A stretch of 64,000 nt of DNA, from contig NZ_CP009516.1 of the NCBI RefSeq assembly GCF_000970285.1, positions 3,141,036 to 3,205,035 on the forward strand, written 5' to 3'. The stretch comes from Methanosarcina horonobensis HB-1 = JCM 15518. Lineage in GTDB: Archaea; Halobacteriota; Methanosarcinia; Methanosarcinales; Methanosarcinaceae. Positions 28,984 through 63,020 of this stretch are shown in pieces. Every line of letters begins with the position of its first letter. The stretch's first letter is position 1. A program made the translations under genes and the position numbers. The notes under the pieces were generated by a model. That model had not been told where the DNA came from. It saw only the letters and a program-made list of their open reading frames with translations, and ran no database searches.

Positions 28984-31900
28984 ATGGTAAAAAAACATAA
29001 TTGTTTTTTCTTTCTTGCTTTGACATGCCTTCTGCTAGGGCAGGCAACAGCAGTTTCAGAAAATCTGACTTCCATAGAAAACGGATCCGTTACATCAGGA
29101 AATAATACATCAATAATAGTTGAAAGTAATGTCTTAAGTACATTTGAAAATAATAATTCCAATTACTATGAAAATGACGAATCTGTTCCACCTGAAAATC
29201 ATTCTTCTAAACTTTTTTCCCTTGCTCCTTTGAATCCTGAGTTTGAGGAGTATCTGGAAAATGAAGGGCTAGATGAGAACCGAATACTCCTTACCTCAAA
29301 TGAGGTTTCTGAAGAAGAGGCCGAAAATTTTGCTACAGGCCTCACTCCTGCCCCCGTAGACCTCACACACCTGAAAACTGTTGAGAATCTGGCAGGCGAG
29401 GGCAGCTATCCAGTTTCTTACGACCTCCGGGCTCTAGGGCGCGTGACTCCCATCCGGGACCAGATGGATGCAGGAAGCTGCTGGGCATTCGGAGCCTGTG
29501 CAGCCCTGGAATCTTACATTCTCGGAACAGAGGGAAAAAGTATGGACTTCTCCGAGAACAATATAAAGAACCTGCTTTCAGAGGATTATCCTGAAGGTTT
29601 TGACCGCACTTATGACGATGGCGGAAATGCTCTTATGACCACGGCTTACTTTACCCGCCGGAGTGGCCCGGTAAGTGAAACCGATGACCCCTATGACTCT
29701 CACTCAGGAATATCCCGGACAGACCTTCCTTCCTTAAAACGGATACAGGAAGTTCTTTTCATTCCGGCAAGAAGCGGACCGGAAGATAACGACCTGATCA
29801 AATGGGCCCTGATGAATTACGGGGTGGTTGGCTCTGCGATTTACTATTCTCCCGATGCTTATGACGCTACCAACTTCACATATTATTACCCTGGGTCGAA
29901 CAGTGAAAACCATCTGATAGGCATCGCAGGCTGGGATGATTCGTTTGACAGAAACAGGTTTACTCCTGCAGCTCCCGGGGATGGGGCATTCATTATCAAA
30001 AATTCCTGGAGTACAAGCTGGGGAGAAGAAGGCTTTTTCTATATCTCTTATTACGATACTGCCATAGGGAGCATAAACAACGTTCAGACTACCGAAGACC
30101 TGAGTTCTTATTCCCATGTATACCAGTATGATCCACTTGGCTGGGTCGAAAATATCGGGGCCTCAGGAAGCAGCACAGCCTGGGCAGCCAACATTTTCAC
30201 AGCCGAAAAAGCCGAAACCCTTGAAACCGTGAGTTTCTATACTACTGCAACCAGTACGGAGTACGAAGTATACATCTACACAGATCCGGTTTCCGGACCC
30301 ATAAATCCTGCAGGGGCAGAAAGTTCTGCCAATGGGACAATTACCTTTGCAGGCTACCATACGGTTTCCCTGAATACCTCAGTTCCTCTTGATCCCGGGC
30401 AGAACTTTTCAGTAGTTGTAAAGTTTACTACTCCCGGGTACTCTTTCCCTGTGGCGGTCGAATACCCGCAGGAAGAGTACAGCAGCAAAGCCAGGGCAAA
30501 CCCCGGAGAGAGCTTTTTCAGCCCTGACGGGGAGAACTGGATAGATACTGCTCTTGCTGCAGAAAACATGAACGTTTGCATCAAAGCCTTCACAAACAGG
30601 AGTGAAGCTGCAGAAGCTGCCTTCACGGCCAATGTTACCTCGGGCCCTACTCCCCTCACAGTAGAGTTTATTGATGCAAGTCTCCTTTCCCCAACTGCAT
30701 GGTACTGGGATTTTGGAGACGGAAACACTTCCGCCGACCGTTTCCCTATTCATAAATATACAGAAGCCGGGAAGTATAATGTCACACTCCATGTGGAAAA
30801 TGAATATGGAAACAGTACTCTTGAAAAAACAGAATGGATTAGTGTAACTAACTCTTCCATACTCTACGTGGACGATGACGAGCATGCGGATTTCGCTTCC
30901 ATCCAGGCTGCAGTTGACGCCGCTTCTCCAGGCGCCACAATCATTGTCCGCAACGGCACATACACTGAAAACGTGGATGTGGACAGGGCAGTTACAATCC
31001 TTTCGGAATCCGGGCCCGAGTACACGGAAGTAAGAGCGGTAAACCCGAAAGATTCGGTGTTCTTCGTAACTGCTGATTCGGTTAACATCTCAGGCTTTTC
31101 CGTAAGAGGAGCATCAGAACTTGTATCTCCTTACTCCTACCCCACTGGCGGGATCTGGCTCTATGAGGTCAGAGACTGCAACATAAGCGGAAACGTGCTT
31201 TCAAACAACTACTGCGGGCTTTATGTCACTGTTTCAGAAAACTGTACCATGGAAAGGAATAGAGCCGAATCCAATAATTACGGGATATATATATCCTCAT
31301 CGGAAGGGAATACTCTTAGAAACAACAGCATGGAAAACAACTCTTACAACTTTGCGTTTCCAAAAGCTTCGACAGAACAGGATATTGATGAAAGCAATAC
31401 CGTGGAAGGCAAACCAATTTACTATCTCGCAAATGAAAGCAACCTTGTCCTTGATTATGGTTCGAATGCCGGAACGGTGTACTGTATCAACTGTCAGAAC
31501 ATGACGATCCGTGACCTTAATCTTTCTGGAAATAACTATGGACTGTACTTTTATAACACAATGGATTCCCATGTTGAAAACACCAGTTCGTCAGATAACC
31601 GGTATGGGTTCTACATCAGTAGTTCCTCCGGCCTGAACTTCACGGACAACAATGCAAGTTCAAACTCCTACGGGCTTTATATTTCAGGCTCGGAATGGGA
31701 CTCACTTGCAGGCAATAGAATGAGTGAGAACACGTACAACTTTAGAATTTCAGGAAATTGTACCTCGCAGAACATTCCTGAGATAGAATCAAGCAACCTT
31801 CTTAATGGAAAGCCTCTGTACATCCTTTCCGGAGTTTCTGACCATGTCCTGAATGCCGGGTCAGGTGCGGGTTCCGTTTGTTTGCTTAACTGCCAGAACG

Positions 31901-34900
31901 TAACAGTCCGGGACCTTGTATTCCGGAACGAATCTTACGGGATCTACCTTTACGGGGCAGAACGGACAGAACTCAAGAACAATACGTTCTTCAACAACAC
32001 ATACGGAGTATACTTCGAGGATTCGGAAAACAGCACGGTACAGGAAAGTGAGTTTTCAGGCAACTCATATGGGATTTACCTGACGGCCTGTTCAGGAAAT
32101 TCCCTGACAGACAACAACCTGACCGGAAATAAGGAACACGGCATATATCTTTACGAAGCCCGGTATAACACCATAAACGGCAATAATGCTTCTGGTGGAC
32201 ACACCGGAATTCTGGCGGACTGCTCGAACAATAATACCTTTGTGGAAAATAACGTTTCGGGTAGTGATCTCGGGCTCGAGCTGTTTGATTCGGATTACAA
32301 CGTCCTGACAGCAAACAATGCAAATTCGAACAATGAAAGCGGAATTAGCCTGACCATAAGCCAGCACAACATACTTTCACGAAATATAGTCTTGGAAAAT
32401 ACCCGAGGTATTACTCTTGAAGGCTGGACAGGGGAATTTTTAACGTCCGACAATGTACTGTTTGCAAATACGGTTTCAAATAACTCTGAATTCGGGCTCT
32501 GGCTTACTGCAGCTATAAACAATACCGTTTACGGTAACTCGTTCAATAATACAAAGAACGTTAAGGACACAGGCAATAACGTCTGGAATACCACCACAGG
32601 TAACTACTGGAGCGATTATACGGGTTCTGACTCTGACAGCAACGGGATAGGAGATACTCCTTATGTTATCAATACTGTCACAGGAAGTAAAGACTACCTC
32701 CCTGTCTGCAGAGAACCGGGCGTTCCGCTTACGCTCACAGTTGGTTCCGGGCCCGGGACTTTTTCCTCAATTCAGGCGGCCGTAGATGCTGCATGGGATG
32801 GGGACACGCTTCTTGTAAACCCCGGGACTTATGAAGAAAACGTGCAGGTGACCAGGTCCGTAAACATCATTTCTTCCTCAGGGAACCCTGAAGACACCAT
32901 TGTCCGTGCAGCTGTCCCTGAAGAAAATGTTTTCAATGTGACTGCCAATTCCGTAAACATCAGCGGGTTCACCGTATCCGGGGCTTCGGAAGGACATGCT
33001 GCAGGAATCTATCTGGAAGGAGTATCCGGCTGCAGTATAAGTGAAAATATCCTTTCCGACAATTATCAAGGAGCCTGGTTATATGAGTCTGAAAACTGCA
33101 CCCTTTCCGAAAACACCGTTACCGGAGGAGAATTCGGGCTCCACCTTGATAATTCCGGCAATAGCTCTGTAAACGATAACAGCATAAGTTCGGTTTCTAC
33201 CTGCGGGCTCTGGCTGAACAGAGCATCAGGAAACGAGGTATCAGGAAACGAATTGCAGGACAACGGATACGGAATTGCTGTTAGGGGCCTGAGTGACGGA
33301 AACAGGCTGTATAACAACACCATAAGCGGAAGTGAACGGTTCGGGTTCTGGCTTTCGGCCTCGGAAGCAAATATCCTGAGAAATAATTCAATGCAGGATA
33401 ACACTTTCAATTTCATGGATGATGTATATTACCGGAATGAAAACCTGATTCCAAACGATATAGATACCAGCAACCTGGTGGATGGAAAAACCATTTATTA
33501 CCTTACAGGAGAATCCGATAAAGTGCTCGATTCTTCTTCAAATGCCGGTACAGTCTACATGATAGGCTGTGAAAACGTAACTGTCAGGGATCTTGTGCTC
33601 GAAAAGAACGGGTACGGGGTTTTTCTTGCGGAATCCTCCAATTCTACCCTGTATAACCTCACCGTATTCGGGAACAATAACGGGATTATAGGGAGGGACG
33701 GCATTGACTGCAACTACTCAAACAACAATGTGAAGAATAACAGTTGCGGAATCGATCTTATTGATGGGAAAGATAACTACCTGAATAATAACATAATCTC
33801 AGAAAACATGTATGGGCTAATGCTCTCTTCCGATTCCAGCGTCCTGAGAAACAATCTTCTTTCAGACAACGAGTACAGCTTTGGAGCTTCTCCTTACACC
33901 GGACAGGGGACCTGTGATATAGACACCAGTAACCTCGTGAACGGGAAGCCAATTTATTACCTTAAAGGGGAATCTGATAGAGTACTCGATACCTCTTCAA
34001 ATGCAGGAACTGTGTACCTTTTTGATTGTGAGAATATAACAGTCCGGGACCAGGTACTTGAGCATAACATATACGGACTTTTCCTTTACAACACGACAAA
34101 TTCGAGCCTGGAGAATAACGTAATTAGCCTCAATGACGAAGGTATTTACCTTTATATTTCCGATACCAATATCCTGCGTGACAACAACCTGTCAGACAAT
34201 TATTGTGGGCTGGAACTCGATGATTCCGGGAATAACAGCATTTACAACAACCTGTTCAGGAACATGGATAATATTTTCCTCCGGGGAGAATGCGACGGAA
34301 ATATCTGGAACGTCAGCAGAACCGATGGACCAAACATTCTGGGAGGTCCCTATATAGGAGGGAACTGCTGGGCAGCACCTGGCGGAACAGGCTTTTCCGA
34401 AACCACTCCGGATGCCGATGGAGACGGTTTCTGTGATACGTCTTACGAAATTCCGAACTCCGACAATGAGTTTGACAGCCTTCCCCTGTACATGCCTCCC
34501 GAAGCAGGGGATGACGGAGAAGAAGAGAAAGAAGAGAACAGCGGAAGAAATGGAAGCAGCAGGAGGCGTTCAGCTCTTTTCGGAGGAGTTTCGGGAACGT
34601 CTTCTGCCAACGTCCTGACAACGGGCGTTTCCAGACAGCAGGTTCTTGCAGGACAGCAGGCAGAGTTTACCTTCAGCGAACCCGGATGCAGTGTTACGGG
34701 AATTAGCTTTGTTTCAGGGACAGGTGCAGGGACAGTAACCGGAAAAGTTGAAGTCCTGAGAGGTCTCCCGAGTACCGTTCTTGAAAGCCCTGAAGGTGAG
34801 ATCTACCAGTACATGAACATAGTTATCGGAAGCCAGTTCTTCGGAGAATTGGATACGTTTAAGAGTGCAGTGATCGAATTTAAGGTTCCCCGCAGCTGGG

Positions 34901-35238
34901 TGGAAGAAAACAATATTGATGAAGCCAGCTTGACCCTGAACCGTTACCACGACAACGCCTGGACCTTACTTCCGACTGAAAAAACCGGGGAAGATGATAA
35001 ATTTCTCTATTTCAGAGCCGAAACTCCTGGCTTTTCCTACTACTCGATTACAGGAGAAAAGAAAGCTTCTGTTACGATAACGCCAGCAACCGGACCTGAA
35101 ACCGAAGCACAGCAAGTAACCGGGGACGAAGTTCCGAATACAGACTCCGGAGAAACCAAGATAATTCCGGGTTTCGGTCCTGCCATTATGGCAACTGGAA
35201 TGGTTTCTGCTTTGCGCCTGTTAAAAAAGAAATCATGA
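28984..35238 (+). CDS. Giant surface protein: papain-like peptidase, PKD, NosD beta-helix, PGF-type anchor
   Basis: 2084 residues. Signal peptide 1-23. C1A papain-like peptidase about 145-360, with Cys166 in GSCWAFGA, His310 in ENHLIGIAGW and Asn340 in KNSWSTSWGE. A lectin-like beta domain (about 380-540) and a PKD domain (about 548-625, WDFGDGNTS) follow. Two right-handed beta-helix units begin about 632 (ADFASIQAAVDAASPGATI) and about 1252 (GTFSSIQAAVDAAWDGDTLL), each with many NosD/CASH repeats (NxYGxYxxxSxxN) and N-glycosylation sequons. A PGF-pre-PGF domain (about 1880-2040) precedes a C-terminal tail with PGFG, a hydrophobic span and RLLKKKS, typical of archaeosortase-processed surface proteins. 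ATG 28984 follows AGGTAAGGG. Monocistronic. It probably cleaves or binds polymers at the cell surface. Confidence 0.9.
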   Translation: MVKKHNCFFFLALTCLLLGQATAVSENLTSIENGSVTSGNNTSIIVESNVLSTFENNNSNYYENDESVPPENHSSKLFSLAPLNPEFEEYLENEGLDENRILLTSNEVSEEEAENFATGLTPAPVDLTHLKTVENLAGEGSYPVSYDLRALGRVTPIRDQMDAGSCWAFGACAALESYILGTEGKSMDFSENNIKNLLSEDYPEGFDRTYDDGGNALMTTAYFTRRSGPVSETDDPYDSHSGISRTDLPSLKRIQEVLFIPARSGPEDNDLIKWALMNYGVVGSAIYYSPDAYDATNFTYYYPGSNSENHLIGIAGWDDSFDRNRFTPAAPGDGAFIIKNSWSTSWGEEGFFYISYYDTAIGSINNVQTTEDLSSYSHVYQYDPLGWVENIGASGSSTAWAANIFTAEKAETLETVSFYTTATSTEYEVYIYTDPVSGPINPAGAESSANGTITFAGYHTVSLNTSVPLDPGQNFSVVVKFTTPGYSFPVAVEYPQEEYSSKARANPGESFFSPDGENWIDTALAAENMNVCIKAFTNRSEAAEAAFTANVTSGPTPLTVEFIDASLLSPTAWYWDFGDGNTSADRFPIHKYTEAGKYNVTLHVENEYGNSTLEKTEWISVTNSSILYVDDDEHADFASIQAAVDAASPGATIIVRNGTYTENVDVDRAVTILSESGPEYTEVRAVNPKDSVFFVTADSVNISGFSVRGASELVSPYSYPTGGIWLYEVRDCNISGNVLSNNYCGLYVTVSENCTMERNRAESNNYGIYISSSEGNTLRNNSMENNSYNFAFPKASTEQDIDESNTVEGKPIYYLANESNLVLDYGSNAGTVYCINCQNMTIRDLNLSGNNYGLYFYNTMDSHVENTSSSDNRYGFYISSSSGLNFTDNNASSNSYGLYISGSEWDSLAGNRMSENTYNFRISGNCTSQNIPEIESSNLLNGKPLYILSGVSDHVLNAGSGAGSVCLLNCQNVTVRDLVFRNESYGIYLYGAERTELKNNTFFNNTYGVYFEDSENSTVQESEFSGNSYGIYLTACSGNSLTDNNLTGNKEHGIYLYEARYNTINGNNASGGHTGILADCSNNNTFVENNVSGSDLGLELFDSDYNVLTANNANSNNESGISLTISQHNILSRNIVLENTRGITLEGWTGEFLTSDNVLFANTVSNNSEFGLWLTAAINNTVYGNSFNNTKNVKDTGNNVWNTTTGNYWSDYTGSDSDSNGIGDTPYVINTVTGSKDYLPVCREPGVPLTLTVGSGPGTFSSIQAAVDAAWDGDTLLVNPGTYEENVQVTRSVNIISSSGNPEDTIVRAAVPEENVFNVTANSVNISGFTVSGASEGHAAGIYLEGVSGCSISENILSDNYQGAWLYESENCTLSENTVTGGEFGLHLDNSGNSSVNDNSISSVSTCGLWLNRASGNEVSGNELQDNGYGIAVRGLSDGNRLYNNTISGSERFGFWLSASEANILRNNSMQDNTFNFMDDVYYRNENLIPNDIDTSNLVDGKTIYYLTGESDKVLDSSSNAGTVYMIGCENVTVRDLVLEKNGYGVFLAESSNSTLYNLTVFGNNNGIIGRDGIDCNYSNNNVKNNSCGIDLIDGKDNYLNNNIISENMYGLMLSSDSSVLRNNLLSDNEYSFGASPYTGQGTCDIDTSNLVNGKPIYYLKGESDRVLDTSSNAGTVYLFDCENITVRDQVLEHNIYGLFLYNTTNSSLENNVISLNDEGIYLYISDTNILRDNNLSDNYCGLELDDSGNNSIYNNLFRNMDNIFLRGECDGNIWNVSRTDGPNILGGPYIGGNCWAAPGGTGFSETTPDADGDGFCDTSYEIPNSDNEFDSLPLYMPPEAGDDGEEEKEENSGRNGSSRRRSALFGGVSGTSSANVLTTGVSRQQVLAGQQAEFTFSEPGCSVTGISFVSGTGAGTVTGKVEVLRGLPSTVLESPEGEIYQYMNIVIGSQFFGELDTFKSAVIEFKVPRSWVEENNIDEASLTLNRYHDNAWTLLPTEKTGEDDKFLYFRAETPGFSYYSITGEKKASVTITPATGPETEAQQVTGDEVPNTDSGETKIIPGFGPAIMATGMVSALRLLKKKS

Positions 35239-53498: not shown

Positions 53499-53614
53499 GA
53501 TTAAAAACATACTTATGCGGTTTCTAATGTACAAAATGCGGCAACTCTTGAGGTTGAGAACCAATAAAACAAAAAGAGATAAAAAGATATTCAGAAAAAG
53601 CCTTGAGATTATAC

Positions 53615-53628
53615 GCTGAGGGGGAGAA
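53615..53628. repeat. 14-bp repeat CGCTGAGGGGGAGA, copy 1
   Basis: Matches 57067-57080 exactly, in the same orientation. The other copy continues as a tRNA 3' end, so this may be an old attachment-site half. Confidence 0.45.
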
Positions 53629-55664: not shown

Positions 55665-56612
55665 ATGTACGAAAATAACCTCATTCTGGATTTAGGTATA
55701 GACCGGGATCTTCCCGAAACATCTTTTCTTACTGATTTTTTACTAGACTGTCAGGTCCGTAATTTCTCTCCCAGGACAATCCAGTCTTACAAAAGCAACC
55801 TGAAATACTTCTTATCCCAGCATTCCATAGACCTTACACCTGAGGTCCTCAAAGACTTCCTGGTCCACATCAGGGGTAAAAAACACTATTCTCCGTCTAC
55901 CGTGGAAAACTATTTCGCGGTGCTCTCTTCTTTTTTTGATTGGCTTGAATGGGAAGGAGTAATCGAAAAAAACATAGTCCCACAATTCCGGAAACGGTAC
56001 TTAAGATACTACAAAGAACAAAGGCACGAAGAGCGCCAGCTAATCAGCCTGGAGCAAATGCGGGCCCTGATAGATTCAGCTGAATGGATAGGCTGGAAAG
56101 CCATGTTTATCTTTTTTGCCAAGACCGGGATAAGAAGGCAGGAACTTATAGACCTCGACCTCAAGGACCTCTACATAGAAAGCAGGTATGCAGTCCTGAA
56201 ACCTCACGCAAAACGAAGTAATAGAGTAGTCTTTTTTGATCAAGAATGTGCTCAGATCCTCGAGGCCTGGCTATCCTGGCGCCAGGAACACAAAATCAAA
56301 TCGAAGACGCTCTTTGTAGGGGTGCAGGGTTCCAGGATCTCTAGGGACGCAGTCTATGAAACAACCACAGAACACGCTCAGCGTTTAGGCTTCCATAACT
56401 CCAAAAGCCGACTACACGAAAAATTCACCCCTCACTGTTTTAGGCACTGGTTTACTACTTGGCTAAGGCGCTCTGGCTGCCCTCGTTCAATTATACAAGA
56501 ACTCCGGGGTGATTCCAGGAAGGAAGCCATAGACATTTATGACCACATAACCCAGATAGAAATAAAAGAGAGTTACTTAAGATACATTCCACAGCTGAAA
56601 ACAAATATATGA
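55665..56612 (+). CDS. Tyrosine recombinase (XerA/integrase type)
   Basis: 315 residues. N-terminal SAM-like core-binding domain (about 20-110). The catalytic domain has Arg in TGIRRQELIDLDL (about 162-174), HCFRHWFTTWLRR (about 257-269) with H-x-x-R, and Tyr in DIYDHITQIEIKESYL (near 300). Full length and intact. It is the likely integrase of the element whose ATPase is broken. It may act at tRNA-like sites. Confidence 0.85.
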   Translation: MYENNLILDLGIDRDLPETSFLTDFLLDCQVRNFSPRTIQSYKSNLKYFLSQHSIDLTPEVLKDFLVHIRGKKHYSPSTVENYFAVLSSFFDWLEWEGVIEKNIVPQFRKRYLRYYKEQRHEERQLISLEQMRALIDSAEWIGWKAMFIFFAKTGIRRQELIDLDLKDLYIESRYAVLKPHAKRSNRVVFFDQECAQILEAWLSWRQEHKIKSKTLFVGVQGSRISRDAVYETTTEHAQRLGFHNSKSRLHEKFTPHCFRHWFTTWLRRSGCPRSIIQELRGDSRKEAIDIYDHITQIEIKESYLRYIPQLKTNI

Positions 56613-56942: not shown

Positions 56943-57342
56943 TTCAATAGTGAAGCCAAAAAAAAGATAAGTTTGTCTTTCAGTGCCGTGACTCAAAAAG
57001 AAGATAGTTTCTTAACAAACGAACAAAAAAAGACCATTTTTAGTAATGTTAACCAGAGAAGTTAGGCGCTGAGGGGGAGATTCGAACTCTTATAGAGCCC
57101 GACATTACCCCTTACATGTACTCACTAGAAGCTGATATTATCGTAAAACCTTTGCGTCATTTTGAGAATGTCGAGCTTGCAACTTTTTAAAAAAGTTTCC
57201 ATCCTAAATGACAAGGTCCCTGTTACCAGCAGGTCGAAATACAGCCTAACATATAATGACCTCTGAAAGTTTAAAAAGCTTTTTATATTTATAAATTTCA
57301 ACTAAAAGTTAGACGGAAATTTTACCAGAATTTTCGTACTAA
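56943..57342. other. Gene-free stretch with tRNA 3'-end-like segment
   Basis: It holds the tRNA-like att candidate at 57067-57091 and a TATA-like tract near 57280-57295 (TTTATATTTATAAA) for the downstream operon. No gene seen. Confidence 0.45.
57067..57091 (-). repeat. tRNA 3'-end fragment, putative attachment site
   Basis: On the minus strand the sequence reads GAGTTCGAATCTCCCCCTCA then GCG. This fits the T-loop (TTCGAAT), 3' T-stem and 3' acceptor strand of a tRNA. The rest of the tRNA is absent on the right. Its first 14 bases on the plus strand are repeated at 53615. Such 3'-end fragments are typical integrase att sites. Confidence 0.5.
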
Positions 57343-57633
57343 TTGAATGAGCTTGCAATAATGAAAAATGATACAATAGATAGCGGAAGCTATGCTTTAA
57401 CTCAGAATAGTAACGTAGTTGAAAACACAAAGTTTTTTTCACAATGTGATGAAAGATTACGTACCTGTTGTCCTTACTGTGGATCTATTAGAATATACAG
57501 AAGGACCAGAAAGGGCGGTTATGTCTGTTCTAACTCAGACTGTCTAAGATCATTTAACATCCCAGCATCTAAATTTACCGGAGTTAGCGGCGGTAGTTTA
57601 CCTACATCTCTTTTCAAGGGGGTCCGGGCATGA
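57343..57633 (+). CDS. Zinc-ribbon protein, first gene of the mini-operon
   Basis: 96 codons from TTG 57343 (ATG 57361 possible). CCPYCGSIRIYRRTRKGGYV then CSNSDC forms a zinc ribbon of the IS/transcription-factor kind (about 42-68). The stop overlaps the next ATG (ATGA). Probable DNA- or RNA-binding protein. Confidence 0.6.
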   Translation: MNELAIMKNDTIDSGSYALTQNSNVVENTKFFSQCDERLRTCCPYCGSIRIYRRTRKGGYVCSNSDCLRSFNIPASKFTGVSGGSLPTSLFKGVRA

Positions 57634-57743: not shown

Positions 57744-57835
57744 GTCGGGATGAGATTATATTTTTCACTCTTTTTTATTTGAGTATCTTTCTTATAGGGC
57801 TTGCCTCCGGGATCTGTTCGGAGGTGTGGCTTTAA
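57740..57835 (+). CDS. 31-residue one-helix membrane peptide
   Basis: GTG 57740 overlaps the previous stop; GGGGGTGG lies upstream. MSRDEIIFFTLFYLSIFLIG is a charged N-terminus plus membrane helix. Stop TAA overlaps the next ATG (TAATG). Confidence 0.5.
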   Translation: MSRDEIIFFTLFYLSIFLIGLASGICSEVWL

Positions 57836-58215
57836 TGGCGCCAGAATCAAATGCCCTTGCTGCCCGGAACGGTTGCCTTATTGAGAAGATTGTCAGGACC
57901 CTATATCCTGACGCTCAATTTGATTATAAGGGAATAGTTGACCTCAAAATAAATGGGCAGCCTGTAGAGATTAAATCCTGCCAGGTTTCTGTATCTGATC
58001 ATAGTCACGGATCTGGGACCAGATCAGGAAGGTTTGCCTTCTCTGCAGAGCAGCACAAAAGCCTGATTCAAAATAAGGGTGAGTATATCCTGATGGTTCA
58101 TAAAAGTGGAGAACCATTCCTTTTTTTCAGGATCCCTGCAGCAGCCTTAAAAATATCTGAATTTTCCGGAGTCAAAAGTGTCTGCTGGAAATCAGTAATT
58201 TCAAGGGCGGTGTAA
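57835..58215 (+). CDS. PD-(D/E)XK-type nuclease, resolvase-like
   Basis: 126 residues. GCLIEKIVRTLYPDAQFDYK then GIVDLKINGQPVEIKSCQV reads as the core E...D-x(n)-E-x-K of the PD-(D/E)XK fold (Asp near 44, Glu-Ile-Lys near 53-55). Later SAEQHKSLIQNKGEYILMVH is a typical Q/H helix. Length fits small Holliday-junction resolvase or endonuclease homologues. Overlapping start suggests coupling with the membrane peptides. Confidence 0.65.
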   Translation: MAPESNALAARNGCLIEKIVRTLYPDAQFDYKGIVDLKINGQPVEIKSCQVSVSDHSHGSGTRSGRFAFSAEQHKSLIQNKGEYILMVHKSGEPFLFFRIPAAALKISEFSGVKSVCWKSVISRAV

Positions 58216-58218
58216 TTT

Positions 58219-58341
58219 GTGGCTGCCAGAATAATTGCTGAACTTCCTGCTCGCTCCTTCCTTAATTATGAGGAAATCAGAGCTAGGCTCAGGGAGTTCA
58301 TAGACATTATAGAGCTACAGCCAAAGGAGGAAAATAAATGA
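58219..58341 (+). CDS. 40-residue helical peptide
   Basis: GTG 58219 (upstream GGGCGGTG inside the nuclease gene) to TGA 58341, which overlaps the next ATG as ATGA. Amphipathic helical sequence (NYEEIRARLREFIDIIELQP). The overlap on the right supports translation. Confidence 0.45.
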   Translation: MAARIIAELPARSFLNYEEIRARLREFIDIIELQPKEENK

Positions 58342-58880
58342 ACTCTGTAGCTGCAGAAATGTTTGGAACTCCTTTAAACCTGGGATCAGGGGAAGTTGTC
58401 AAGGAAGCCATAAAGGAACTTTTCCGAGAAGAACCCGAGTTTTTTCAAGCTGCCCTGCAGGGGATACTTTCAGAGATTTCAGAACGCATAGATCACACAC
58501 AAATGGAACAGATTAAGGATAGGTCAAGGATTGCAGATCTGGAACTTCTCCTAGGACTTGATGAGGAGATCCAAGATCCTGAAGATCCATACTATCCGGA
58601 AAAAAAAGAGAGACTAGAGGAACTCAGACAGAAAACTAGCTTTATCCGGGAGATTCAAGGAAATCCTGAGCAGAGTTTAGAAAACCATCTCTATGAAGAA
58701 CTCAAACGGAGCCTTTCAATGAAAAACAGAGATATCATGAACTTGTTCGGATGGGATAAAAAGAATACTATGAAGGCGACACGATTGATGCAAAAAATGG
58801 CGGAGACGTTCTCTGATGTGGTTTATGAGCCAGTTCCAGGAAAGAAAAGAGTAATGAGAATCCACCTAAAAAAACAATAA
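58338..58880 (+). CDS. Putative DNA-binding protein, last gene of the mini-operon
   Basis: 180 residues; AAAGGAGG 8 bp before ATG 58338. The N-terminal half is helical with an acidic middle. The C-terminal 60 residues (LYEELKRSLSMKNRDIMNLF...TMKATRLMQKMAETFSDVVY...KRVMRIHLKK) look like a winged helix. The iterated palindromes lie just downstream, so it could bind them as repressor or replication initiator. No family recognised. Confidence 0.55.
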   Translation: MNSVAAEMFGTPLNLGSGEVVKEAIKELFREEPEFFQAALQGILSEISERIDHTQMEQIKDRSRIADLELLLGLDEEIQDPEDPYYPEKKERLEELRQKTSFIREIQGNPEQSLENHLYEELKRSLSMKNRDIMNLFGWDKKNTMKATRLMQKMAETFSDVVYEPVPGKKRVMRIHLKKQ

Positions 58881-58897: not shown

Positions 58898-58938
58898 TTC
58901 AAACATTATGTTTAAACATTTCAAACATGATGTTTGAA
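58898..58938. promoter_or_regulatory. Two 19-bp palindromes, left pair
   Basis: TTCAAACATTATGTTTAAA (58898-58916, one mismatch) and TTCAAACATGATGTTTGAA (58920-58938, perfect about its centre) lie 22 bp apart, about two helical turns, so bound proteins would sit on one face. Confidence 0.8.
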
Positions 58939-59152
58939 TTTTTGATGAAAAAAGGTGAAAATTGTGATACCATTTATATAGTGACTGAATGAGGGAAAGA
59001 TAATTTCCTCAAAATGAAAAAGTGATACAAGGAAAGTTGTGTTACTTGGGCAAAAATCCAAAATTTTCTCTTATTTTTTATCTCTCTTATTTTATATTAT
59101 CTTCATAACTTGTAAATGAAATTTGTAAAATGAATCCTATCTGTTACAAAAG

Positions 59153-59190
59153 TTCAAACATCATGTTTGAAACGTTTGAAAATGTTTGAA
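59153..59190. promoter_or_regulatory. 19-bp palindrome plus half-sites, right group
   Basis: TTCAAACATCATGTTTGAA (59153-59171) followed by half-sites ACGTTTGAA (59172-59180) and ATGTTTGAA (59182-59190), spaced at about 9-10 bp. Same motif as the left pair, 215 bp away. Confidence 0.8.
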
Positions 59191-59332
59191 ATTATATTTT
59201 CGCAACCAGTAATCTCTTTTTTGTAGATAATCCATGAGATTTCAGAATAAAGTAGTTAGTTACTAACAAAAAAGAACCTGAAGTAGCAAGCAGGAATCGA
59301 TAATTCAAGAAAGTTGTCTATTTCGGTGTCTT

Positions 59333-59896
59333 CTAATTGACTTGTCTCGAAGTTCGGATGTATTTTTCAAAGAAAGAAAACACATCACCTAAGACGTGTT
59401 CATGTAAATCAATGTCGTTATCATACTCAACTGACACAACATGATATCTTTCCGTCCGTAATTCTTCCTTTAATAATGTGCCCATGGCAGGAATACCATT
59501 GTGAGTCTCCTCAAACACTCTACACTTTGAGAGTAAATTATTTCCAATTACATATTTTAATTCACTGGTAACGCTATCTGTTTTTCCCCTACATGTAAAG
59601 ACAAGTATATTTAGATCGGCAAACTTCAAACAATCAAAGCTCTTATCAAGGTTTGAGCTAATTGATTTTTCATCAGAAGGGAAATCTTCAACAATGTAAG
59701 TGCTGATATAACCATTATTTCTCAAATAGTCCCGAAGTTTAATCAGCCTTTCCTTTTCTCCCAAATGCTCTCCATCTCCAGGTGGATTATATGCACCATA
59801 GATGATAATGTGAATCCTGCCTTTATGAGAGATAATAGACTCTGCTTTTTTTTGTTGAAAAATATTCCATCGCTCTGAAGTATTTTTGGATATCAC
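59333..59896 (-). CDS. TIR/deoxyribosyltransferase-like Rossmannoid protein
   Basis: 187 residues. A first strand and loop IHIIIYGAYNPPGDGEHLGE (about 28-47), then ERLIKLRDYLRNNGYISTYI, then ADLNILVFTCRGKTDSVTSE (about 93-112) with a possible catalytic Glu. The order resembles TIR or nucleoside 2-deoxyribosyltransferase folds, which cleave N-glycosidic bonds of nucleotides. In mobile DNA such proteins are often defence effectors. This is a weak, fold-level resemblance. It diverges from the gene at 59993. Confidence 0.5.
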   Translation of the reverse strand: MISKNTSERWNIFQQKKAESIISHKGRIHIIIYGAYNPPGDGEHLGEKERLIKLRDYLRNNGYISTYIVEDFPSDEKSISSNLDKSFDCLKFADLNILVFTCRGKTDSVTSELKYVIGNNLLSKCRVFEETHNGIPAMGTLLKEELRTERYHVVSVEYDNDIDLHEHVLGDVFSFFEKYIRTSRQVN

Positions 59897-59992
59897 ACAA
59901 TTTTAGTTATTTTTACGACATAAAAAAGTATAAGTAAAATCAGTTATACTAAAGTAAATTAAATTATACGTAATTTGATGGAGGAGATTACT

Positions 59993-60511
59993 ATGGGCAT
60001 AGATGAAAATGAAAAAATAAAAGCGTATGCGAACGAATTGCCTGCTGAACTTAGGCGAGCAATCGATGCGTTGAATAGTGATATTGGTTTGGCCGTTTTT
60101 TTTGTACTATTCAAATATGGCGAAATGTCGTTTTCACAAATAATGAGCGAATTAGATATCCCATCAAATTACAGTAGCAAATTAACATACCACATCAAAA
60201 AACTGCAAAAAGGTTCATTGGTTAAAAATGAATATATTAAAAAGGAAAACGTAGATAGTTATTCCTTTTACGATATCACAGAGTTTGGAGAAGGAATTAT
60301 CAATAATTTGATGAACGCAATTCAGGTACCACAGTCGAGTAATTATCTCATACAAACGTTAGATGAAAACTCCACCACCAGTCCAATGACAAGAATTATG
60401 TTAAATTTGGACAGCAATGATAGTAAATTTAATGTAGACTGTGCAGCTGCCTCTGATAGTGTCATTAAAGTTTTGTTAAACCAATCTGAAGCTACTATGA
60501 TGGCAAATTAA
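59993..60511 (+). CDS. ArsR-like winged-helix regulator
   Basis: 172 residues from ATG 59993, which has GGAGGAG upstream; earlier in-frame starts at 59975 and 59978 sit on that SD. Winged helix about 30-110 (FSQIMSELDIPSNYSSKLTY as the HTH, IKKENVDSYSFYDITEFGEG as the wing). C-terminal part is polar with no obvious ligand site. Divergent from the TIR-like gene, which it may control. Confidence 0.7.
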   Translation: MGIDENEKIKAYANELPAELRRAIDALNSDIGLAVFFVLFKYGEMSFSQIMSELDIPSNYSSKLTYHIKKLQKGSLVKNEYIKKENVDSYSFYDITEFGEGIINNLMNAIQVPQSSNYLIQTLDENSTTSPMTRIMLNLDSNDSKFNVDCAAASDSVIKVLLNQSEATMMAN

Positions 60512-60661
60512 TATCACTAGTACTGCGATTCCGAAGTATGTTCACAAAAATTGACGGTTGAATCTATCCCACGATCACGAATTTCTCAACAAATAGGGAA
60601 TTTATTTTGGAATCGAAGCACTAGGAAATTAATAATAATTCTAGGTTGTTGAGGTGAAATC

Positions 60662-61018
60662 ATGGAAACAGATAAAAAAATCTCTTTAAGTTATGCTCCA
60701 CAAAAGGTGAAAACAGAAAAGTCTGATAATTATAGGGAAGTTACGCAGGATAGAGTTTTTGCAGGAATCAGAGAGGGCTATTTCATTTACATGATTCAAA
60801 GTGAAGTGTTTGATACTAATCAACTGGAGGATAAGGATGAAGGGCATTTTACTGATGAGGTACTGGTCAGGGTACCGCCTCAACAGATGGTTAGAATGCA
60901 CAAACTTTTTGGTCAATTAATTAAAAATTATGAAAATATTTATGGAGAAATCAGAAATTTAGAACAAATAGCTTCTGAAAAACCAGATCTATTCAAAGAT
61001 TTATCCTCTAAATCTTAA
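60662..61018 (+). CDS. DUF3467-like protein
   Basis: 118 residues; ATG 60662 behind GAGGTGA. VFAGIREGYFIYMIQSEVFD then VLVRVPPQQMVRMHKLFGQL and IKNYENIYGEI fit the DUF3467 layout (two strands, then a helix ending in a YE-x2-YG motif). Function unknown. Confidence 0.55.
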   Translation: METDKKISLSYAPQKVKTEKSDNYREVTQDRVFAGIREGYFIYMIQSEVFDTNQLEDKDEGHFTDEVLVRVPPQQMVRMHKLFGQLIKNYENIYGEIRNLEQIASEKPDLFKDLSSKS

Positions 61019-61058
61019 GTACTCTCAATTGATTCTAATCAGCATTATTTATTAATCT

Positions 61059-61196
61059 AAATACTCGGCTCTGTACAAAACCTATTTTAATCAGCATTAA
61101 GGGGCCACAATTAACTGTGGGAAATAGAGATCACAAGATCAGTGCAGAATAACGAATATTTATTATTTCATAGGCATTCTACAGAGCCAAATACTC
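61059..61196. mobile_element. 122-bp MITE with target-site duplications
   Basis: Element 61067-61188 begins GGCTCTGTACAAAACC and ends with the inverted copy: perfect 9-bp TIR GGCTCTGTA, 13 of 16 over the extended ends. It is flanked on both sides by the 8-bp direct repeat AAATACTC (61059-61066 and 61189-61196), a clean target-site duplication. It has no ORF, so a related transposase elsewhere must have moved it. Confidence 0.85.
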
Positions 61197-61450
61197 CGGA
61201 TATGATATCTATAGAAAATTAAAGCGTTTTTTTCAAAATCGTGTTCGGGCTTAAACTTTTAGTCTTTTAGGAGTAATTAAGATATTTCCTACATACATAG
61301 GTTTTATATCAAAATCAATGTATCCATGGAAAACAGCATTCTGTATAAACTATAGACTACGATATAAATCTACATAACTATCTAACTTCAAATTTACAGC
61401 AAACCTGCGACATTGCAAAAAAATTTTATTTTAAAGAGGGCCCCGCTAAT

Positions 61451-61470
61451 TGTTACCAAATGTGGTAACA
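61451..61470. promoter_or_regulatory. Palindrome TGTTACCA-AATG-TGGTAACA
   Basis: Perfect 8-bp arms around a 4-base spacer; operator-like. It lies 40 bp from the tandem array. Confidence 0.6.
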
Positions 61471-61508
61471 GATAGATCATTTATCACATAAAATGAAGGG
61501 TTATCATT

Positions 61509-61579
61509 TTGTATTCAAATCTAGGATTGTATTCAAACCTGGGATTGTATTCAAGTCTGGATTGTATTCAAATCTGGGA
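61509..61579. repeat. 18-bp tandem repeats, four copies
   Basis: TTGTATTCAAATCTGGGA with small variations: 61509-61526, 61527-61544, 61545-61561 (17 bp), 61562-61579. Direct, contiguous and iteron-like, just upstream of a TATA tract. Confidence 0.9.
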
Positions 61580-61800
61580 TGAAAAACAAATATAAGTAAC
61601 TACAGCATTTATACTACCTGCATTACCAAAAAATTGAGCAATAAAAGGGAACATACAAAGAAAGCTTTTATGTTCTTATAAATCAAGAGTATACGGATCA
61701 TAAAGGCACTAGAACCTGAAAACGAAAAAATTTAAAGTTCCCATTAAATACTATATGCTAGGTTAGGTGAACCAGTGAAGTAATAAAGTTAGAAAGCTTG

Positions 61801-61835
61801 TAAGTTGTTGGGATCGTGACTCCCTACAACTTACA
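61801..61835 (+). ncRNA. Strong hairpin, possible structured RNA or origin stem
   Basis: GTAAGTTGTTGGGA and TCCCTACAACTTAC pair over 13 of 14 positions with a 7-base loop (TCGTGAC). There is no ORF nearby on either side for 200 bp. It could be a leader RNA, a terminator, or the single-strand hairpin of a rolling-circle origin. Confidence 0.45.
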
Positions 61836-62038
61836 GACTTATGTTTAAGGAAAGTATTTCAAAACATTGCAATAATATACCATTTCTAATTGTATCGTAC
61901 ATGTACTTGTACTTTGCGATTGTATATAACTCTGAAAATTGCAATCTACTGAAATCTTTCCTTTTTTTTGTACAGAGTAATAAAACTTTGCATGAAGTAA
62001 AAAGAACTCATGTCAAATAAATAACAGGAGGACATATT

Positions 62039-62182
62039 ATGTCAACTGTATTCCACGCAGGATTCATGACATATCTGTTGATTGCAATCATCTTCTTCTT
62101 AGCTCTCTGCTTTGTTGCTCCCGATATTGCTGACCAGGTATTAATTGATCTGCACAATCTAGCCTCAGCGGTAAAGGTATGA
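62039..62182 (+). CDS. 47-residue one-helix membrane protein
   Basis: ATG 62039 behind CAGGAGGA; TGA at 62182. MTYLLIAIIFFLALCFVAPD is a membrane helix, followed by a short amphipathic tail. It could be a minor virion or membrane peptide. Confidence 0.6.
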   Translation: MSTVFHAGFMTYLLIAIIFFLALCFVAPDIADQVLIDLHNLASAVKV

Positions 62183-62387
62183 TAAATACCTTTTTTCCTT
62201 TTTTTCAATTTTTGAACAATACATAGAGGTCTGAAAATGGCTTCAAAAAAGGGTCTTAGATATTCCCATCTCTTATAAAGAACACACAAGTTTTAAGGTA
62301 AAACCTGTGCATTCTTCATGATTTGGTATAATTATGCGGTAATTTTGGCTCAAAAACATCAAAAGTACGCAGGTTTAAATAAAAGCT

Positions 62388-63020
62388 GTGTATACTTACT
62401 TTGGTGATTTTTTGGTAAAATACCCTAAATCAGGTTATGAAAAAGATTCTGAAGCTTTACATTTCTATGTGAAAGATGTAAGAATCCTTACTCCTAAAGA
62501 ATATGAAGCATTAAAAGCCACTATTCCAAAAGATCAGCATAAAACAACTTTAGATATTCTTCTAATTACAGGTATGCGCTACGCAGAGCTTTTGAGGCTC
62601 TATGATAATCCTGCCTGGTACAATGAGAAAAGAAATATAATTCATCTCCCGGAAGAGGCACAAAAGAAACACAAAAGAAGACAGTTAGAAAGAACTATTC
62701 ATCCTTTACCTTCCATGTTCAATTATCTTCTAAAGGACTTCTGGCAGGCCCGTAAACCTCCCTTAGAAAGTACCTGGAATAAGAACCTTCAAAGATGGGC
62801 TATGTCTGCAGGCATAAACCCTTATGGTCTTTCTGTAAAGTCAAGTAGAAAAACACTGGAGTCCTGGTTAATTGCTTCAGGGGTTGTTGAGTCTACCGTA
62901 TGTTTACGGCAGGGTCATGATTCCTTAACCTCTATGCGTCATTATCAGGGGCTTGCCTTTTCAGATGATGAATTAAGAGACATAAAAAAGCAGCTAATCG
63001 CATGGGGTTTCTCGATATAA
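62388..63020 (+). CDS. Short tyrosine recombinase
   Basis: 210 residues from GTG 62388 (no SD). Catalytic-domain motifs TGMRYAELLRLYD (about 64-76), SSRKTLESWLIASG (about 159-172), RQGHDSLTSMRHYQGLAF (about 179-196) with His and the nucleophile Tyr. The usual H-x-x-R is S-x-R here, so one catalytic His is replaced. Truncated N-terminal domain. It resembles integrases of small archaeal viruses. It differs from the recombinase at 55665, so a second element is likely. Confidence 0.8.
   Translation: MYTYFGDFLVKYPKSGYEKDSEALHFYVKDVRILTPKEYEALKATIPKDQHKTTLDILLITGMRYAELLRLYDNPAWYNEKRNIIHLPEEAQKKHKRRQLERTIHPLPSMFNYLLKDFWQARKPPLESTWNKNLQRWAMSAGINPYGLSVKSSRKTLESWLIASGVVESTVCLRQGHDSLTSMRHYQGLAFSDDELRDIKKQLIAWGFSI

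Follow-up and report, generated by a model that had tools for sequence, protein, structure and literature searches.

The way in which many archaeal viruses initiate DNA replication is unknown (PMC13107129); in Methanosarcina, the shuttle-vector replicon on which work has been done is of the rolling-circle HUH type (PMC9569500). The locus described here, in a window of 64,000 nucleotides from Methanosarcina horonobensis HB-1 (the whole stretch of DNA that was analysed), raises the question of what is served by a set of palindromes lying at the 3' end of a gene for a small protein. A preliminary description had seen in them a multimeric binding array for the winged-helix-like product of that gene, fitting either a looping repressor or a replication origin. 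From the evidence set out below, we consider it probable that an integrated virus-like Methanosarcina element has its replication origin in this array and that the 180-residue winged-helix protein is the origin-binding initiator.

The array is built from a 19-bp palindrome, TTCAAACATNATGTTTGAA. The three copies previously reported are present, with the qualification that two are exact (58920..58938 and 59153..59171) and the leftmost, TTCAAACATTATGTTTAAA (58898..58916), carries one mismatch. The start-to-start distance of the left pair is 22 bp, as had been described, and the inner palindromes bracket a spacer of 214 bp (58939..59152) rather than 215 bp. The direct half-sites noticed on the right also hold: their starts, at 59163, 59172 and 59182, are 9 and 10 bp apart, the last two (59172..59190, plus strand) forming the outer part of the right arm. 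The left arm has the mismatched palindrome as its outer unit, overlapped by a tight 12-bp palindrome, ATGTTTAAACAT (58908..58919). Over 37 nt, each arm is an inverted copy of the other (89% complementarity), and both face outward: read away from the spacer, each starts with the palindrome that forms its inner unit and reaches the next half-site after 9 bp, and from there to the last half-site is 10 bp in the right arm and 13 bp in the left.

Shuffled windows contained on average 0.13 matches to the palindrome when up to three mismatches were allowed, and three such matches were reached in none of 100 shuffles; half-sites with at most one mismatch number nine in 480 bp, versus 0.3 in shuffles. 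Searched genome-wide, the motif proved not to be common: our three sites are the only ones with at most one mismatch in the 5.02-Mb genome, and the lone two-mismatch site elsewhere falls within an open frame. In a scan of about 85,000 species genomes, which may omit records very near the window's own genome, the exact palindrome was found in 22 stretches, and in more than one copy only in that of Methanosarcina sp. KYL-1. Single palindromes (up to two mismatches) in other Methanosarcina genomes were set aside, several of those checked lying within open frames; one is in a 567-codon open frame common to four species. On the array itself, Rfam gave sub-threshold matches only, mostly to microRNA models falling on the palindromes.

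Three related elements are integrated one behind the other at a chromosomal tRNA-Ser(UGA) gene, and the second of them holds the array. An attachment core, CGCTGAGGGGGAGA, occurs in four copies (53613, 57067, 72364 and 90606, in the window and the sequence beyond it), the last of which is the 3' end of the tRNA-Ser(UGA) gene (extended coordinate 90605-90690), and these copies thus delimit three elements: A, a 3.5-kb remnant with the core at its left edge (53613..53626, matching the tRNA 3' end); B, of 15.3 kb, which runs from its own left-edge core (57067..57080) to about 72364, beyond the window; and C, of 18.2 kb. The tandem region spans 53613 to about 90606 (L025, L026 and L079 beyond the window), and a related tyrosine integrase terminates each of A, B and C (at 55665, 70482 and 89222, respectively). 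Elements B and C encode small membrane proteins, a packaging-type ATPase and a large spike-like protein, which in element B and in the KYL-1 element has carboxypeptidase-regulatory-like domains. The virion and ATPase roles were assigned by reading, and this gene content suggests that B and C are proviruses. A profile of the virion ATPase gave zero confirmed relatives among viral contigs, and the protein had no relative in the phage collection.

The same cassette is found in KYL-1, where it sits in another provirus adjoining the same tRNA-Ser gene: a gene for a 182-aa homologue (71% amino acid identity) is followed by the same array, with one extra unit on the right (L023:16206-16234). A third species (G009, L069:9680-9920) carries a relic in which the winged-helix end of the gene is broken by stops and is followed by degenerate left-arm-like repeats, a tandem of TAAAACATCGTGTTAAAACATGTCAAAA units. 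In a single-sequence search of 185 genomes of the order, the 180-aa gene was found nowhere besides KYL-1 and this decayed remnant, which puts the known intact copies at two; neither the palindrome nor the protein led to a close relative among viral contigs, and phage and plasmid records yielded no relatives. Profile matches in three distant genomes cover mainly the N-terminal part of the protein, not the winged helix, and are probably due to chance. As judged from this joint conservation of gene and array in KYL-1 and in the decayed third copy, the earlier proposal that the product of the gene at 58338 is the partner of a multimeric array is well supported.

The two intact copies can also be compared in sequence. 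The left arm is 97.6% identical and the right arm 100%, versus 80.8% for the spacer (88% in its AT-rich right half) and 48% for the third codon positions of the adjacent gene. Invariant runs measure 31, 23, 14, 31, 27 and 47 bp; the tight 12-bp palindrome and the whole of 59149-59195 are invariant, and homology stops about 35 bp past the right arm, at about 59230. The identity of the spacer and its invariant runs, set against the third codon positions, show that selection acts on the spacer too and not on the binding sites alone. The spacer, of 25.7% GC, contains a 23-bp invariant block, CCATTTATATAGTGACTGAATGA (58970..58992, plus strand), with a TATA-box-like TTTATATA at 58973; a possible stem-loop, GAGGGAAAGATAATTTCCTC (58991..59010), with one compensating change in KYL-1; another around the invariant ACAAGGAAAGTTGT (59020..59047), strong in our sequence and weak in KYL-1; a 31-bp invariant AT-rich block with two direct repeats, TCTCTTATTTTTTAT and TCTCTTATTTTATAT (59067..59097), which is a candidate DNA-unwinding element; and a 27-bp invariant AT-rich block with the repeats TTGTAAATGAAA and TTGTAAAATGAA (59110..59136). 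Only 0.7% of the 100-bp stretches of the window are weaker than the weakest part of the spacer, although AT-rich intergenic regions as unstable as the spacer are common in the window. Folded as single-stranded DNA, the whole spacer did no better than shuffled sequence.

Element B has, in order, a Zn-ribbon protein that opens the replication-side operon (57343..57633, plus strand; matching the TFIIB-type Zn ribbon at E 0.002, short of Pfam's cut-off), a phrog_2095 family protein (57826..58215, plus strand; E 2e-11; nuclease-like by reading), the 180-aa protein (58338..58880, plus strand) and the array. Element C and the related element of G023 start likewise with Zn-ribbon and phrog_2095 genes but have HUH Rep after them, the phrog_2095 homologues lying directly before or near the HUH Rep gene; G012 has the Zn-ribbon and the HUH Rep. 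Homologues of the 57343 Zn-ribbon thus precede HUH Rep in the sibling elements, and the 180-aa gene and the HUH Rep gene fill the same slot, in the same host genus. HUH Rep proteins (PF23343) of Methanosarcina proviruses lie at L026:4318-5673, L061:10178-11503 and L062:3186-5195; these HUH-bearing proviruses have their virion module in common with KYL-1, where the module that element C and related HUH elements carry adjoins the 180-aa gene and the array. A scan of the sibling proviruses for repeated palindromes brought up no equivalent array (a palindrome cluster in L062 falls in repeats of a large coding sequence and was discarded).

In element B and the early region of KYL-1, none of the predicted proteins that were scanned is a recognisable replication protein. 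A hidden replication enzyme is possible, since many of the early proteins in the two elements are without a family match. The simplest reading of the synteny, drawn from few elements and two intact copies, is that the 180-aa gene and the array perform the job that HUH Rep and its origin perform in the siblings. It is likely, on this comparison of gene orders, that the array and the 180-aa gene form a replication module that can be swapped.

What kind of protein would the initiator be? An AlphaFold model built with two sequences agrees with the winged helix that had been read in the product of 58338: a C-terminal winged helix (residues 110-180, the putative recognition helix being residues 141-157) is predicted with confidence (pLDDT 80-89), preceded by about 110 residues that are modelled as mainly helical, this N-terminal half being uncertain (mean pLDDT of the model 66, weak outside the winged helix). 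The KYL-1 homologue, modelled alone, gave the same fold. The closest folds, nearly tied, are F-112 of SSV1, other winged-helix proteins, Z-alpha domains and MarR regulators, in line with a predicted MarR-like winged helix. F-112 is likewise a small archaeal viral winged-helix protein and the top structural match (Z 8.7, rmsd 2.8 over 69 residues), tied with several others; its identity to our protein is 13%, and its solved domain has no counterpart of the N-terminal helical half. A shared winged-helix fold is not a shared function. Searches of Pfam, PHROG and PDB sequence families gave zero confident matches, and a sequence-profile search of known structures returned nothing meaningful and no related initiator. 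No nuclease or helicase domain was recognised in the protein, nor was there a match to an HUH Rep domain or an H-hydrophobic-H motif within the 180 residues; the protein would therefore depend on host or undetected viral enzymes.

Haloarchaeal Orc1/Cdc6 ORB origins and the oriS of herpes simplex virus have paired inverted binding arrays that flank an easily melted AT-rich stretch, and the present array resembles them in having inverted site arrays around an AT-rich core. The host's own Orc1/Cdc6 was rejected as the binder, and the array as an Orc1/Cdc6-type origin, because no cdc6 gene lies beside the array and the motif is not enriched in the host origin region. Indeed, the two Orc1/Cdc6 genes of the host lie elsewhere (at 1026 and 4933521), with no motif excess upstream of the first.

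Another likeness is to the Rep-Arvir/SNJ2 module of betapleolipoviruses, in which a gene for a MarR-like winged-helix initiator has at its 3' end a conserved non-coding region of 200-350 bp with a palindrome and a hairpin (PMC13107129). In SNJ2, a haloarchaeal pleomorphic virus, this is an essential 210-bp region with an inverted repeat and a hairpin, and the operon is completed by excision (PMC13107129); circularisation of element B would similarly join the integrase at its right end upstream of the Zn-ribbon-to-initiator operon at its left end. There are also differences. The inverted repeat of SNJ2 is single, short and variable and comes with one conserved hairpin, whereas the array has two invariant inverted arms flanking AT-rich DNA; the hairpin candidates in the spacer are strong in our sequence and weak in KYL-1. 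Moreover, the Rep-Arvir initiators are defined by a catalytic DUF7845 domain (PF25227) with an essential tyrosine, N-terminal and of about 300 residues in SNJ2 Rep (PMC13107129), whereas our protein has 180 residues in all and gave no match to PF25227 at E up to 0.1. The whole genome gave none either, while the control genome, Haloferax volcanii, did match. Lacking DUF7845, the 180-aa protein is not a member of that family and at most works like it. It also differs from the sibling HUH modules and from the RepA of Methanosarcina shuttle vectors (PMC9569500) in that the cassette has no HUH nuclease. Most likely, the initiator is of a kind not yet described.

Several observations together argue that the array is an origin. 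The gene and the array occur only together (in element B, in KYL-1 and in the decayed third copy), the cassette fills the HUH Rep slot of the sibling elements, and no other replication protein was found among the proteins scanned. Flanked by convergent genes, the array follows the 3' end of the 180-aa gene, just as the SNJ2 origin lies downstream of its initiator gene (PMC13107129). Arms and spacer are conserved above third codon positions, the spacer is unstable and has AT-rich direct repeats, and the protein has a predicted winged helix with F-112 of SSV1 and MarR among its closest folds. Sequence features of multi-site, initiator-bound origins are thus found here: like sites, an adjacent candidate initiator gene and an AT-rich stretch with repeats. 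From these features, we infer the following course of events. The element would excise and circularise; the winged-helix protein would bind the palindromes as dimers and spread outward over the half-sites; two such complexes would bracket the AT-rich spacer and open (or mark) it; and host replication proteins, or a nickase, would enter at the opened spacer.

The other function that had been proposed, a looping repressor, takes the form of a regulatory switch in which the 180-aa protein is a lysogeny repressor: bound to the two arms, it would draw the spacer into a loop and silence the promoter of a short non-coding RNA at TTTATATA (58973). The TATA-like box does lie inside the invariant 23-bp block, stem-loops and T-rich stretches follow it, paired arms could loop, and the MarR-like fold is one that is typical of repressors. 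It is possible that the spacer contains the promoter of a short RNA. The stem-loops, however, are weak in KYL-1, a match to Rfam is absent, and the AT-rich half of the spacer is as well conserved as the TATA block. Convergent genes flank the array in both species, and no gene is transcribed outward from it for about 0.8 kb in our sequence and more than 2 kb in KYL-1. Finally, palindromes do not occur beyond chance level elsewhere in either element, and none lies at any other promoter, that of the gene's own operon included. We therefore regard a switch as unlikely; the convergent genes, the lack of a palindrome at any promoter of the element and the HUH Rep slot favour an origin over an operator. 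Apart from this question, the TATA-like block, stem-loops and T-rich stretches of 58970-59097 may be the source of a short RNA, about 80 nt in length.

Should the array be an origin, it might still be one of rolling-circle type with a hidden catalyst, the arms being bound and the stem-loop at 59020-59047 nicked by a protein outside known family models. The pairing of an inverted repeat with a hairpin in SNJ2-type origins (PMC13107129) speaks for this variant, as does the stem-loop itself, whose 14-nt core is invariant while the surrounding bases are the least conserved of the spacer. Against it, no HUH or DUF7845 domain was found in the element proteins scanned, and DUF7845 is absent genome-wide; the hairpin in KYL-1 is not clearly more stable than chance, and a nick site needs no doubled inverted arms around AT-rich DNA. 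To this variant, we allot a small part of the probability given to an origin.

Inverted arrays of phased half-sites next to a gene for a small DNA-binding protein would also fit a role in partition or copy-number control, the array serving the excised element as a centromere-like or incompatibility site with the 180-aa protein as adaptor. This seems improbable to us: the element proteins that were scanned include neither a ParA-like nor a tubulin-like motor, and the slot that the cassette fills belongs to a replication gene and not to an accessory gene. Chance or a general genomic repeat, for which the AT-richness of the region and nothing further speaks, is refuted by the shuffles, the genome-wide uniqueness and the near-perfect conservation between species, and we give it practically no weight.

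More speculatively, the cassette may represent a new family of archaeal viral initiators, i.e. small winged-helix proteins without a nuclease or helicase of their own that bind two inverted phased arrays around an AT-rich core, recruit host proteins for theta-type replication, and are swapped with HUH rolling-circle modules between related viruses. If it is an origin with a non-catalytic initiator, it would provide a compact replicon (about 900 bp) for methanogen genetics and a clear case of unrelated replication modules exchanged within one virus lineage.

A few other genes were noted in passing. Beyond the array in element B (59230-62388), the genes at 59333 (minus strand), 59975 and 60662 are orphans with weak or zero family matches. 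They are followed by a second, shorter integrase-like gene inside B (62388-63020), 83% identical to one in G012 (L061:12461), whose product is a putative internal recombinase, common to B and G012, besides the terminal integrase. Outside the element, 28984-35238 encodes a 2084-aa secreted protein whose start reads as papain-like and in which segments of beta-helix and PKD-like type seem to be repeated, these domain names being assigned by reading.
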